In this document: piece by piece, positions 22,771-25,301 of the stretch
Layout of the letters: each line of letters opens with the position of its first letter
Position numbering within the stretch: position 1 is the stretch's first letter
Source: Flavobacterium macrobrachii
Lineage (GTDB): Bacteria; Bacteroidota; Bacteroidia; Flavobacteriales; Flavobacteriaceae
NCBI RefSeq assembly: GCF_014486675.1
Contig: NZ_JACTAC010000002.1
Span: 62,001 to 126,000, forward strand
Direction: 5' to 3'
DNA: 64,000 nt
Notes under the pieces: generated by a model
What the model was told of the DNA's origin: nothing
Databases searched by the model: none
Seen by the model: the letters and a program-made list of their open reading frames with translations, nothing else
Translations under genes and position numbers: made by a program

Positions 22771-23376
22771 ATGTTTTCACAATTTGCCTTCCCAATTTTT
22801 GAACAAAGCATCAAAGACTATCATATTATTGATGATGTATATCAACCAACACTAAATCCTTACGAAAAAGGAAGTATTGAGTATCTTTTATATGCAAAGA
22901 ATTGGGTCGACACTGTTCAATGGCATTATGAAGACATCATTCGTGATCCAAATATTGATCCAGTTGCAGCTTTAGATTTAAAACGAAAAATCGATGCTTC
23001 CAATCAAGTTCGTACGGATATGGTAGAATATATTGACAGTTACTTTCTTCAAAAATATGCTTCGGTTCAAGTAAAATCAAATGCCAAAATCAATACCGAA
23101 AGTCCAGCTTGGGCAATTGATAGATTATCGATTTTAGCTCTGAAAATTTACCACATGAATGAAGAAGCAACTCGCGTTGATGCAACAGCTGAACACAGAG
23201 CAAAATGCCAGGAAAAGTTAAACGTTTTGTTAGATCAAAAAAGCGATATGTTTACCTCGATCAATGATTTATTAACTGATATTGAAAACGGTGACAAGTT
23301 CATGAAAGTGTACAAACAAATGAAAATGTACAACGATGATGATTTGAATCCGGTGTTGTATCAGAATAAGAAATAA
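22771..23376 (+). CDS. DUF4254 domain protein
   Basis: 201 residues, largely helical and soluble. YAKNWVDTVQWHYEDIIRDP (51-70) and a DLKRKIDASNQVRTDMVE segment match the DUF4254 family as I recall it. In other flavobacteria this gene is usually beside a family 9 glycosyltransferase gene, which suggests a role with it; here an RNA-NYN module separates the two. Reaction unknown. Confidence 0.8.
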   Translation: MFSQFAFPIFEQSIKDYHIIDDVYQPTLNPYEKGSIEYLLYAKNWVDTVQWHYEDIIRDPNIDPVAALDLKRKIDASNQVRTDMVEYIDSYFLQKYASVQVKSNAKINTESPAWAIDRLSILALKIYHMNEEATRVDATAEHRAKCQEKLNVLLDQKSDMFTSINDLLTDIENGDKFMKVYKQMKMYNDDDLNPVLYQNKK

Positions 23377-23386
23377 TGGTATAAAA

Positions 23387-23418
23387 TTTGTATTTACGAA
23401 TAAAATGTACTATTTTTG
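23387..23418 (+). promoter_or_regulatory. Near-consensus Bacteroidetes promoter of the structured RNA
   Basis: TTTG at 23387-23390, a 20-nt spacer and TATTTTTG at 23411-23418 match the TTTG/TAnnTTTG housekeeping promoter. The expected start site is near 23424-23430, at or just before the first RNA helix at 23432. It lies wholly downstream of the DUF4254 stop. Confidence 0.75.
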
Positions 23419-23431
23419 TAGTACATATAAC

Positions 23432-23515
23432 GTCCAATGAGCGGATTTGTCAGCTTTAGATTGTTCCAGTCTAAAGTAATTATAGCGACAAATACTGACT
23501 TTGGACATTTTTTTT
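23432..23515 (+). ncRNA. Candidate structured small RNA with three nested helices, 5' of the NYN gene
   Basis: Three nested perfect complementary segments are visible: GTCCAA (23432-23437) with TTGGAC (23501-23506); ATTTGTC (23445-23451) with GACAAAT (23487-23493); CTTTAGA (23454-23460) with TCTAAAG (23470-23476). The last can extend by a T-G and a T-A pair to a 5-nt GTTCC loop. Internal loops are 7 by 7 nt and 2 by 10 nt. The outer helix runs into eight Ts (23508-23515), so the RNA would end in its own terminator. A promoter lies directly upstream and the NYN ATG 12 nt downstream. It could be a free RNA, a leader that attenuates the NYN gene, or both. Identity with a catalogued motif such as Flavo-1 is not excluded. 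Confidence 0.7.
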
Positions 23516-23527
23516 ATCTATATTTTT

Positions 23528-24235
23528 ATGAAAACAGCAATTTTAATTGATGGAGGCTTTTTTATTAGAAGGTATAAATATATCAAAGGTTTTGAAAGTT
23601 CAGATACTCCTGAAATAATGGCAAAAAACATAGTTTCGTATTGTTTTAAACATATTCAAAGAATTAATAATTACCGTCAAAAGTACAATCTTCCGCCTAC
23701 GGAACTTTACAGAATATTTTATTATGATGCAGAACCTTTTGATGGAGATTCTAAAAATCCCATATCAGGTAAATCAATGAGTTTTAAAAATACCGATTTA
23801 TATAAATTTAGACACTCTCTTTTTACAGAATTAAAGAAGCAGAGAAAAATTGCATTAAGATTAGGGTTTTTAAAAAATAGCTCGAGAGAATGGCAAATAA
23901 AGTCAAGGCATACTAAATCATTACTTGACGGAACTATAAGCATTTCTGATTTAAAATTCGATGATGTAGAATTTCCCTTAAATCAAAAAGGAGTTGACAT
24001 GAAAGTTGGTTTAGATATAGCAACATTATCTTTTAAAGAACAGGTAAATCAGATTATTTTAATAGCTGGCGATAGTGATTTTGTCCCAGTAGCTAAATTT
24101 GCCAGAAGAGAAGGAGTTGATTTTATTTTAGATCCGATGTTAAATCCTGTTGATCCTAATTTATTGGAACATATTGATGGTTTGATGACAATAAAGAATA
24201 TGACAAAAAAGGATATTGTTCCTAAAGAAATATAA
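23528..24235 (+). CDS. NYN domain protein (LabA/DUF88-like, PIN-fold putative ribonuclease)
   Basis: 235 residues from the ATG at 23528; an in-frame TTG at 23501 lies inside the RNA hairpin and is rejected. The NYN fold is recognisable: ILIDGGFFIRR with Asp8, GVDMKVGLDIATLS (155-168) with Asp157 and Asp163, and IAGDSDFVPVAKFARREG with Asp182 and Asp184. These acidic residues form the metal site of PIN/FEN-like nucleases. Residues 40-150 are a larger Arg/Lys-rich insertion than in minimal NYN proteins and could bind RNA. The start codon comes just after the terminator of the structured RNA, so expression probably depends on read-through. It ends 7 nt before the GT9 start. Confidence 0.85.
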   Translation: MKTAILIDGGFFIRRYKYIKGFESSDTPEIMAKNIVSYCFKHIQRINNYRQKYNLPPTELYRIFYYDAEPFDGDSKNPISGKSMSFKNTDLYKFRHSLFTELKKQRKIALRLGFLKNSSREWQIKSRHTKSLLDGTISISDLKFDDVEFPLNQKGVDMKVGLDIATLSFKEQVNQIILIAGDSDFVPVAKFARREGVDFILDPMLNPVDPNLLEHIDGLMTIKNMTKKDIVPKEI

Positions 24236-24242
24236 TTTTGTT

Positions 24243-25301
24243 TTGTCAAAACCAATCCAACATATCGCCGTTATTCGTCTCTCAGCAATGGGCGATGTTG
24301 CTATGACGGTTCCAGTTATTCGAGCAATGGTTGCACAATCCCGAAGTCTCGGGACAACTGTAAAAATCACAGTCGTTTCTCGACCGTTTTTCAAACCTTT
24401 TTTTGACGGAATTCCCAATGTAGAATTTTTTGCAGTTGACGTAAAAAAACGACACAAAGGTTTATTCGGATTATTGAAATTATATTCTGATTTGAAGAAA
24501 TTAAACATCGATGCTGTTGCCGATTTGCATAATGTGTTGCGTTCCCAAATCATTCGAACTTTATTTTTATTGTCAGGAAAAAAAGTTGCCGCAACCGATA
24601 AAGGCAGAGCCGAAAAACGCGCTTTAACTCGTGCCGAAAATAAAGTTTTTCAACCCTTAAAAACAATGGTCGAAAGACATGTTGAAACGTTTAAAAAACT
24701 AGGTTTTTCTGTTGATTTATCTTTGCCAAATTTCCCTGAAAAAGCATTTTTATCTGAAGAAATTTTAAGTATTTCAGGTAAAAAAGACAATTTTAAATGG
24801 ATTGGAATTGCGCCATTTGCTCAATATGAAAGTAAAGTCTATCCGTTGGATTTAATGCAAAATGTAGTTGATAATTTAGCATTGAAAAGCAACACTAAAA
24901 TCTTCCTTTTTGGTGGAGGAAAAGAAGAAACCGAAAAACTAAATACTTTGGCAAAACAAAGAGAAAATATCGTTGTTGTTGCCGGAAAACTAAAATTTAA
25001 TCAAGAATTACAGCTTATTTCTAATCTTGATATAATGCTTTCTATGGATAGTGGAAACGCTCATATTGCCGCAATGTTAGGTATAAAAGTCATCACACTT
25101 TGGGGTGCAACACATCCTTTTGCTGGATTTGCACCATTCAATCAACCGCTGGAAAATTGCCTAACTTCTGATAGAGAAAAATATCCACTATTGCCAACTT
25201 CGGTTTATGGAAATAAAAAAGTGGAAGGTTATGAAGATGTGATGCGAAGTATTTCTGTGGAAAGTATTGTGAAAAAAATTAATTTAGTTTTAAACCATTA
25301 A
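24243..25301 (+). CDS. Family 9 glycosyltransferase (heptosyltransferase-like)
   Basis: 352 residues from the TTG at 24243 (MSKPIQHIAVIRLSAMGDV). No ATG is available upstream of the conserved N-terminus, and an earlier TTG at 24216 lies inside the NYN gene. It has MGDVAMTVPVIRAM, the GT9 acceptor loop, and SMDSGNAHIAAMLGIKVITL with TLWGATHP, the ADP-heptose-type donor site. It probably adds a core LPS sugar. A palindrome (24339-24354) encodes a short insertion after the first helix. It lacks its own visible promoter and is likely read from the NYN unit or further upstream. Confidence 0.87.
   Translation: MSKPIQHIAVIRLSAMGDVAMTVPVIRAMVAQSRSLGTTVKITVVSRPFFKPFFDGIPNVEFFAVDVKKRHKGLFGLLKLYSDLKKLNIDAVADLHNVLRSQIIRTLFLLSGKKVAATDKGRAEKRALTRAENKVFQPLKTMVERHVETFKKLGFSVDLSLPNFPEKAFLSEEILSISGKKDNFKWIGIAPFAQYESKVYPLDLMQNVVDNLALKSNTKIFLFGGGKEETEKLNTLAKQRENIVVVAGKLKFNQELQLISNLDIMLSMDSGNAHIAAMLGIKVITLWGATHPFAGFAPFNQPLENCLTSDREKYPLLPTSVYGNKKVEGYEDVMRSISVESIVKKINLVLNH

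Follow-up and report, generated by a model that had tools for sequence, protein, structure and literature searches.

A structured RNA paired with an NYN-domain protein gene in Flavobacterium macrobrachii and across phages, plasmids and chromosomes from several phyla

Introduction

In Flavobacterium macrobrachii, a short structured RNA with its own promoter-like site lies directly in front of a gene for an NYN-domain protein. Such an arrangement raises the question of whether the RNA and the protein belong together and, if so, whether the RNA would control the synthesis of the protein or its activity. A first-pass annotation of the window, i.e. the whole 64,000-nucleotide stretch of DNA analysed here, had listed a promoter, three nested helices (6, 7 and 7 bp), eight Ts, an ATG 12 nt further on and a 235-residue protein with five Asp, all of which are indeed present.

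Organization of the locus

Positions 22771-25301 of the window carry, in this order, a DUF4254 gene, an insert and a glycosyltransferase family 9 (GT9) gene. Both flanking genes are resident; the upstream one (22771..23376, plus strand, as are all the features below) matches PF14063 and the downstream one (24246..25301, start approximate) matches PF01075. The insert, situated within 23387-24235, is composed of a promoter-like site, a nested-hairpin RNA, a U tract and the NYN gene. The promoter-like site TTTG-N20-TATTTTTG (23387..23418; TTTG at 23387, then 20 nt and TATTTTTG at 23411) is presumably of the Bacteroidota consensus type. It is followed by the structured RNA core (23432..23506) and by a tract of eight T (23508..23515), a putative intrinsic terminator. 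The gene for the 235-aa protein (23528..24235) begins with its ATG at 23528, 12 nt past the last T of this tract.

The DUF4254 gene is present in 41/41 genomes of the genus searched, and its junction with the GT9 gene was compared in 30 genus loci, the window included. A GT9 gene follows DUF4254 without any NYN gene in 28 of the 29 other loci and was not found after it in the remaining one. The gap between the two genes is about 18 nt or less in 20 of these 28 loci and 91-334 nt in the other 8; in the window it measures about 869 nt. Since the flanks adjoin without NYN in 28/29 loci, the RNA and the NYN gene appear as one cassette, gained or lost together. The window locus is chromosomal, lying between two resident genes, and nothing mobile was noticed beside the module. 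The order DUF4254, RNA, NYN and GT9 is common to the window and three close relatives (L002, L003 and L004), whose NYN proteins are 94, 91 and 90% identical to that of the window. In one of these loci, a repeat-like stretch ('ggagctatttcccg...', L003:5712-5810) separates the NYN and GT9 genes; from its resemblance we take it to be, possibly, a Flavobacteria intergenic repeat.

Fold and local conservation of the RNA

The RNA core consists of an outer helix P1, an internal loop, an inner helix P2, an apical hairpin P3 and an AUAGC motif. The 5' arm of P1, GTCCAATG (23432..23439), pairs with its 3' arm, CTTTGGAC (23499..23506, placed by alignment), with one mismatch, and P1 contains a perfect 6-bp helix (GTCCAA at 23432, TTGGAC at 23501). 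P2 is formed by 7 bp between ATTTGTC (23445..23451) and GACAAAT (23487..23493), with AUAGC directly before the 3' arm. The apical hairpin P3 (23454..23476), variable in sequence, has 7 extendable base pairs (CTTTAGA at 23454, TCTAAAG at 23470). The fold predicted for the 90-nt RNA has an energy of -27.1 kcal/mol and a z-score of -5.34, equalled by 0/200 shuffles; besides this fold, the core is delimited by its invariant halves and by the architecture shared with other loci. Indeed, both 25-nt RNA halves are identical in the window, L002, L003 and L004, and what varies among these four loci is the spacer of the promoter and, at its tip, the apical hairpin. Over the first 600 nt of the NYN gene, 38, 42.5 and 43.5% of third codon positions in the three relatives differ from the window. 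The invariance of the RNA halves despite this divergence points to selection on the RNA sequence and not on the fold alone.

Within its own genome the RNA gave one match at E ≤ 0.001; an integron attC or MITE, considered from the letters only, was dropped because of this single copy and because no second end was seen. A DNA search of 249 genomes of the family returned, besides the window RNA itself, only partial matches, mostly to the A/T-rich 3' end, the best at 4.7e-5 over query positions 74-108. Compared with all of Rfam at the gathering score, including Flavo-1, to which the earlier annotation had pointed, the window gave no match. At relaxed E-values there were only two hits, STnc410 (E 1.4) and, on the opposite strand, mir-1264 (E 0.023); both lie far below their cut-offs and were taken as chance.

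The NYN protein

The protein matches the NYN family PF01936 with 32.8 bits, above the curated cut-off of 24.2, and over residues 1-225 it matches the phage protein profile phrog_5783 (E 4.8e-84), a family annotated as of unknown function. Residues D8, D157, D163, D182 and D184 are all present and are invariant in 38 sequences. The predicted structure (pLDDT 86.7, pTM 0.82) has as its best PDB folds VPA0982 (2qip, Z 14.5) and the MARF1 NYN domain (5yaa, Z 14.4; 6fdl, Z 14.2); the next fold follows at 11.3, and flap-type nucleases such as ExoIX have values of about 10-11. Foldseek alone gave 2qip as the sole PDB match under E 0.001. AbiF-, ToxN- and VapC-type folds are absent among the PDB matches listed, which excludes none of them. 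PADLOC reported, for the window, only a weak LabA-like match (E 2.6e-4). The CRISPR-associated NYN protein of B. fragilis is described as an RNase whose D13A mutant is without RNA cleavage (PMC11346440). The fold and the acidic residues are common to this protein, MARF1, VPA0982 and the window NYN, but for none of these three RNases do the available parts of the sources describe an RNA gene on the 5' side.

Three subclasses of a covarying RNA

When the letters upstream of NYN genes were inspected by eye, most loci showed a closing helix and, beyond an internal loop, an inner helix, with a U tract a short way ahead of the NYN start. Three subclasses were distinguished: type A, the Bacteroidota type and the enterobacterial type. 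Type A RNAs, which seem to come mostly from Bacillota-like phages, are about 52 nt long, with a P1 of 8 bp, a P2 of 2+4 bp and a loop like ACCAUAA. Their internal loop carries AGUA in 40/56 sequences opposite GAA in 31/56, and certain unpaired or kept bases hardly vary: U at column 14 (56/56), A at 15 (55/56), A at 48 (54/56) and A-U at 30/33 (51/56). The Bacteroidota type has a P1 of 8 bp, a CUAC/CGAC-like loop, a P2 of 8 bp and an apical part ending in AUAR, whereas the enterobacterial type spans 53 nt without gaps in 11 sequences. In type A, 50/56 sequences have an apical loop ending in AUA or AUC, and the Bacteroidota RNAs compared have AUAR at this place; since only 5/11 enterobacterial rows have such an ending, AUA is not universal.

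The type A alignment was derived from 98 upstream regions, in 96 of which a script found the arms; 37 rows, wrongly bounded or of another subclass, were set aside, leaving 59 rows, of which 56 are distinct. In these 56 sequences, 93.1% of the cells pair and 15/16 pairs are changed on both sides. The alignment contains 203 double-change cells versus 48.9±8.2 in shuffled alignments, and its covariation score is 0.629 versus 0.248±0.012, falling to 0.21 or less when the partner is slid; the number of double-change pairs was reached in 30/500 shuffles. As the rows were chosen for visible P1 arms, covariation in P1 is favoured by this choice, in which P2 played no part; P2 has double changes in 6/6 pairs, with 90-91.5% of its cells paired. 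For the other two alignments, rows with visible arms were picked by eye. In the Bacteroidota type (7 sequences, with some misregistered cells), 7/16 pairs have double changes and the score is 0.440 versus 0.274±0.038. In the enterobacterial type, the corresponding values are 12/17 pairs and 0.529 versus 0.259±0.027. The shuffles were not beaten on one of the five measures, that of further pair types, in the Bacteroidota type (15 versus 14.0 in shuffles, 179/500 as high) or in the enterobacterial type (15 versus 17.7, 490/500 as high). Collectively, the covariation of the RNA family is strong, and the covariation of the helices, proposed earlier as a check, is present in all three subclasses.

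Linkage between the RNA and the NYN gene

A covariance model of type A, R1, was used to search 99 sources (638,108 bases). At E ≤ 0.01 it gave 75 matches, 74 of which are located no more than about 90 nt 5' of an NYN gene, out of 98 member loci; 56 of these 74 loci had built the model and the other 18 had not, some of them being near copies of alignment rows. One RNA match stands before each R1-matched NYN gene, i.e. there are no tandem repeats. Only one match is away from NYN: at L060 3944-3995, with 60.6 bits and a terminator, directly before a tyrosine-integrase-like gene. The NYN gene of the same contig has its own RNA upstream, so that this match is a second RNA copy, with no NYN between. 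With default filters and at E ≤ 0.01, 24/98 members were left unmatched, among them the window and the enterobacterial and Bacteroidota types, and most of these loci show a comparable RNA by eye. When the filters were switched off for 17 sources (10 of the 24 unmatched and 7 new ones), four matched at E ≤ 1e-5 (L136, L134, L108 and L128).

The linkage was also followed in the opposite direction. A search of IMG/VR with the RNA pattern only returned 41 stretches, 39 of which have an NYN gene within 250 nt downstream (type A, 6/8; enterobacterial type, 33/33, these being near copies). The two remaining RNAs (L327:9265-9288 and L331:3634-3657) lie on viral contigs and have a terminator and, by eye, a promoter-like sequence; no NYN match was found in the whole of these 27- and 33-kb records, which are possibly fragments. 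Ahead of the L331 RNA are a repressor-like gene and an ORF of 134 aa. The three RNAs without an NYN gene of their own (the second L060 copy, L327 and L331) could be relics.

Hairpin descriptors were run on 107 upstream regions, obtained by thinning 172 loci by shared 8-mers; the window dropped out at this step, presumably because it nearly duplicates L002. A lax hairpin descriptor turned out to be useless (103/107 NYN upstreams versus 613/1,070 shuffles and 193/440 other ORFs). A stricter two-stem descriptor, at a score of at least 32, a threshold set once the counts were known, detected 90/107 NYN upstreams versus 46/535 shuffles and 39/440 other ORFs. The separation is moderate and depends on the threshold, with 101 versus 202 shuffles and 145 other ORFs at 26, and 80 versus 19 and 23 at 34. 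The consensus RNA is unclear at a few loci. L029 (NYN 39% identical) has, besides a strong terminator hairpin, two small ones, L039 reaches only 16.1 bits with R1 (E 0.15), and L139 from H. pylori (27%) has a plain hairpin. The split or partial NYN genes of L132/L130 and L131 are preceded by a plain hairpin or none, and in L045/L046 the insert is much longer.

We regard the existence of the RNA-NYN module as nearly certain. NYN homologues lacking any upstream RNA had been named as a point against it; the homologues do have the RNA, at 74/98 loci by R1, and it occurs upstream of homologous NYN genes in several phyla, as expected of an RNA-protein module.

The window RNA and the staphylococcal Teg147

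The window RNA has the elements of the Bacteroidota type in the same order, namely P1 (7/8 pairs), P2 (7/7), P3 and AUAGC, corresponding to the AUAR with which the apical part ends in other RNAs of this type, followed by the U tract and the NYN start. The internal loop, AGCGG/ACUGA, is peculiar to the window RNA and differs from that of the Bacteroidota type. The covariance search suggested by the first-pass annotation did not recover it at a significant level. The best R1 score on the window stretch was 3.5 bits, at a place other than 23432-23506. R2, a Bacteroidota-type model built without the window lineage, found nothing across the window under default filters; with the filters off, over 1.4 kb, it ranked the window RNA at 23432-23506 best and in the correct register, at 4.8 bits and E 2.7, hardly above the next rows. 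Run on 29 sources, R2 recovered two loci from outside its alignment, L042 at 40 bits and L133 at 24.7 bits, and missed the window, L002, L003 and L004. Since models from other lineages give no significant score, the membership of the window RNA in the family rests on its architecture, its position and the homologous NYN.

One branch of the family has already been catalogued. At its gathering score of 56.1, the Rfam family TEG147 (RF03535) matches L103 (80.9 bits), L100 (58.3 bits) and L087 (56.3 bits) directly 5' of NYN, i.e. 3/8 of the NYN loci given to it, and L117 stays under the cut-off with 39.8 bits. From these matches, the S. aureus sRNA Teg147 belongs to the type A RNA family. Teg147 is described as a bona fide sRNA of 60 nt (S. 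aureus HG003, 386294-386353; PMC5826253), expressed from a genomic island (PMC3053349), and the family is listed in Rfam 14 (PMC7779021). It differs from the module described here in that Rfam labels TEG147 as Cis-reg, that it is under the cut-off in 5/8 NYN loci given and that the available parts of the cited papers link Teg147 to no protein. The window RNA has no gathering-level match to TEG147, and none was found in the window's own genome, where the control sequences gave none either; blastn with the TEG147 consensus in phages and plasmids also gave no match.

The module had been presented as perhaps undescribed. This holds for the pairing: in the open-licence literature, at the level of titles and abstracts, we found no paper joining an NYN gene to an upstream RNA, although absence is not thereby proven, and 'NYN domain' is absent from the main text of PMC8547433 and occurs only in the reference list of PMC3710099. 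It does not hold for the staphylococcal branch of the RNA, which is the only one found in Rfam. The parts have been catalogued separately, as phrog_5783 and RF03535. A protein family of no known function is now joined to an RNA, and both acquire a testable role.

Distribution and genomic context

The first-pass annotation had confined the proposed search to Bacteroidetes, a scope that proved too narrow: the RNA-NYN pair is a mobile module of phages, plasmids and chromosomes in several phyla. By tblastn, the protein was found in 15 phage records (Escherichia 6, unclassified 3, Streptococcus 2, and Moraxella, Dorea, Lactococcus and Proteus 1 each) and in 167 plasmid records (Campylobacter 136, Xanthomonas 13, Aeromonas 8, Helicobacter 3, Thermus 2 and five single ones), 128 of which are conjugative. 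Viral contigs searched with the window protein alone gave no relative; for the IMG/VR alignment scans, the best 80 of 197, 80 of 109 and 79 of 184 relatives were used, with much overlap. In a phylum-wide sample, 6/385 genomes match NYN at E ≤ 1e-10, the window's own included; in 249 genomes of the family, the window protein matches only itself; and in the genus, 7/348 genomes match at E ≤ 0.001, again with itself included. Of these seven, L030 represents another NYN subfamily and L031 is spurious, containing stops. Another locus of the same genus (L028:1501-2139, minus strand) carries an NYN homologue 53% identical to that of the window, with an RNA leader and an in-frame stop; here the RNA was apparently kept while the enzyme was broken.

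In an E. coli prophage and in ev099, a lambda-like phage, the module lies between a CI/LexA-type repressor gene and N, the accessory slot of lambda-like prophages. Part of the lambda-like NYN locus is matched in 274/5,426 E. coli genomes, and at least 80% of it in 73. The module adjoins the repressor in a P22-like Proteus phage, and it stands beside the integrase in a Streptococcus prophage and beside the terminase in a Moraxella phage. In Campylobacter conjugative plasmids it comes after a large helicase gene, and in a Thermus plasmid the order is helicase, RNA, NYN and N6 methylase, with the NYN and methylase genes overlapping. These phage and plasmid positions are those of an accessory or mobile element. 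The Thermus segment (L038:1136-8706), with the module between the helicase and N6 DNA methylase genes, has the look of a defence island. In the Moraxella phage Mcat4 (L032:3792-3979), isrK-like and C4 antisense RNAs, identified by Rfam, come after the NYN gene, a further RNA-based region of a phage. RefSeq annotates an 858-nt NYN ORF of E. coli prophages (L124:4126-4983 and L125:1626-2483) as a pseudogene piece plus a separate 354-nt NYN gene; the DNA of L124 is identical to an open phage NYN ORF despite this annotation.

Possible function of the RNA-NYN pair

The RNA-NYN pair probably serves as a toxin, or as a unit of phage defence, under the control of the RNA. We lean slightly towards a mode of action like that of type III toxin-antitoxin (TA) systems or of the HEPN protein AbiF, in which an abundant, terminated RNA would restrain an RNase made by read-through. 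One promoter would drive the small structured RNA, which would mostly be stopped at its own terminator, and occasional read-through would give the mRNA of an NYN-fold ribonuclease. The RNA, in molar excess, would bind NYN and keep it inactive; if it were depleted or displaced, e.g. by phage takeover, the RNase would be freed, leading to a growth halt or to degradation of phage RNA. The logic would be that of type III TA or AbiF, except that the enzyme has another fold and the RNA consists of a single unit. That unpaired bases are conserved suggests a partner, and NYN is the partner that travels along with them; moreover, RNA units without their own NYN favour action in trans. Against an antitoxin role, many leaders of RNA-protein type regulate in cis only, and control of read-through alone would explain the terminator.

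ToxIN, TenpIN and CptIN have an RNA, a terminator and an RNase gene in this order, expressed from one promoter, and are characterized by a tandem-repeat RNA and a ToxN-like fold. The type III order of RNA gene, terminator and protein gene is likewise predicted, at the sequence level, for the NYN module. Type III antitoxin RNAs are described as tandem repeats (PMC12373285), but such repeats are absent from the RNA of the NYN module, which gives one match per locus; the toxin, too, is not of the ToxN, TenpN or CptN type but an NYN protein, judging from Pfam and from the best solved folds. The module is therefore not a member of ToxIN, a distinction that the earlier annotation had already drawn. 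A parallel in organization is offered by AbiF-RCd22 of Clostridioides difficile, where the short RNA is reported to dominate and the protein to be made by read-through and then bound and neutralized by the RNA in trans (PMC12373285). That system is, by the same account, phage-borne, and it has the promoter, structured RNA, terminator and toxin gene arranged as in the NYN module; AbiF differs in being related to the origin of Cas13 and in the two abiF motifs of its RNA. The abiF motif RF03085 gave no gathering-level match at the NYN leaders given, where the only Rfam match is TEG147. Should the RNA restrain the enzyme, RNases of the NYN/PIN fold would join the HEPN and ToxN folds as effectors of RNA-antitoxin modules.

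Alternatively, NYN could bind or cut its own 5' leader and set termination or mRNA decay, much as some RNases control themselves by feedback, with no job of the RNA in trans. RNase leaders acting as the substrate of their own enzyme are common, and in most loci, by eye, a hairpin and a U tract do lie between the promoter-like site and the gene. We nevertheless find such cis-only autoregulation rather unlikely, since RNAs with a promoter-like sequence and a terminator occur in NYN-less records, a second copy precedes the integrase gene of L060, and Teg147 is listed as an sRNA. A further reading makes the RNA a cofactor, guide or obligatory substrate and the NYN-RNA complex an active ribonucleoprotein. 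The strongly kept unpaired signatures of type A would suit such a role, but the stems change by compensation and nothing like a hypervariable spacer was seen outside the Bacteroidota-type apical hairpin, which renders it improbable. It seems very improbable that the RNA controls integrase or repressor genes, with NYN as a processing enzyme: the RNA directly before the integrase gene in L060 and the modules beside an integrase or repressor in several phages would agree with a lysogeny regulator, but elsewhere the neighbours are a terminase, plasmid genes or, in the window, DUF4254 and GT9. Finally, a plain terminator or insulator that precedes the gene by chance, whose U tract would stop read-through from the resident operon, is scarcely credible in view of the conserved unpaired bases, the two- or three-tier fold, the co-occurrence with one protein family and the post hoc two-stem descriptor counts given above; covariation and linkage speak for rejecting an ordinary terminator or chance hairpin.

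Returning to an RNA that restrains the NYN RNase, a broader scenario may be put forward more tentatively. Such a phylum-spanning RNase could possibly defend the host of the element against other phages, and some phages could carry the RNA alone as an antidote, i.e. an RNA-based counter-defence. The type A AGUA/GAA internal loop would then be the contact site, perhaps mimicking the natural target of the enzyme. RNA anti-CRISPRs are described as carried in the form of solitary repeat mimics (PMC10651486), and counter-defence by NYN-less RNAs would be comparable in logic. If restraint by the RNA holds, the NYN-less RNAs are candidate phage antidotes.

Palindromes at the promoters

Palindromes accompany the promoter-like sites of several loci. 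In the window, ATGTACTA-TTTTTG-TAGTACAT (23405..23426) lies over the -10 box and could possibly be an operator; in an alignment inspected by eye, it is imperfectly retained in L002 and L004 and unseen in L003. Many enterobacterial loci (L222-L277, L036, L037, L153 and L154) show, by eye, a palindrome TTGAC(A/G)-N4..6-(T/C)GTCAA over the -35 box, and in many type A loci a palindrome, variable in sequence, comes just past the -10 box. These palindromes, at the -35 box or after the -10 box, may represent candidate operators or a 5' hairpin.
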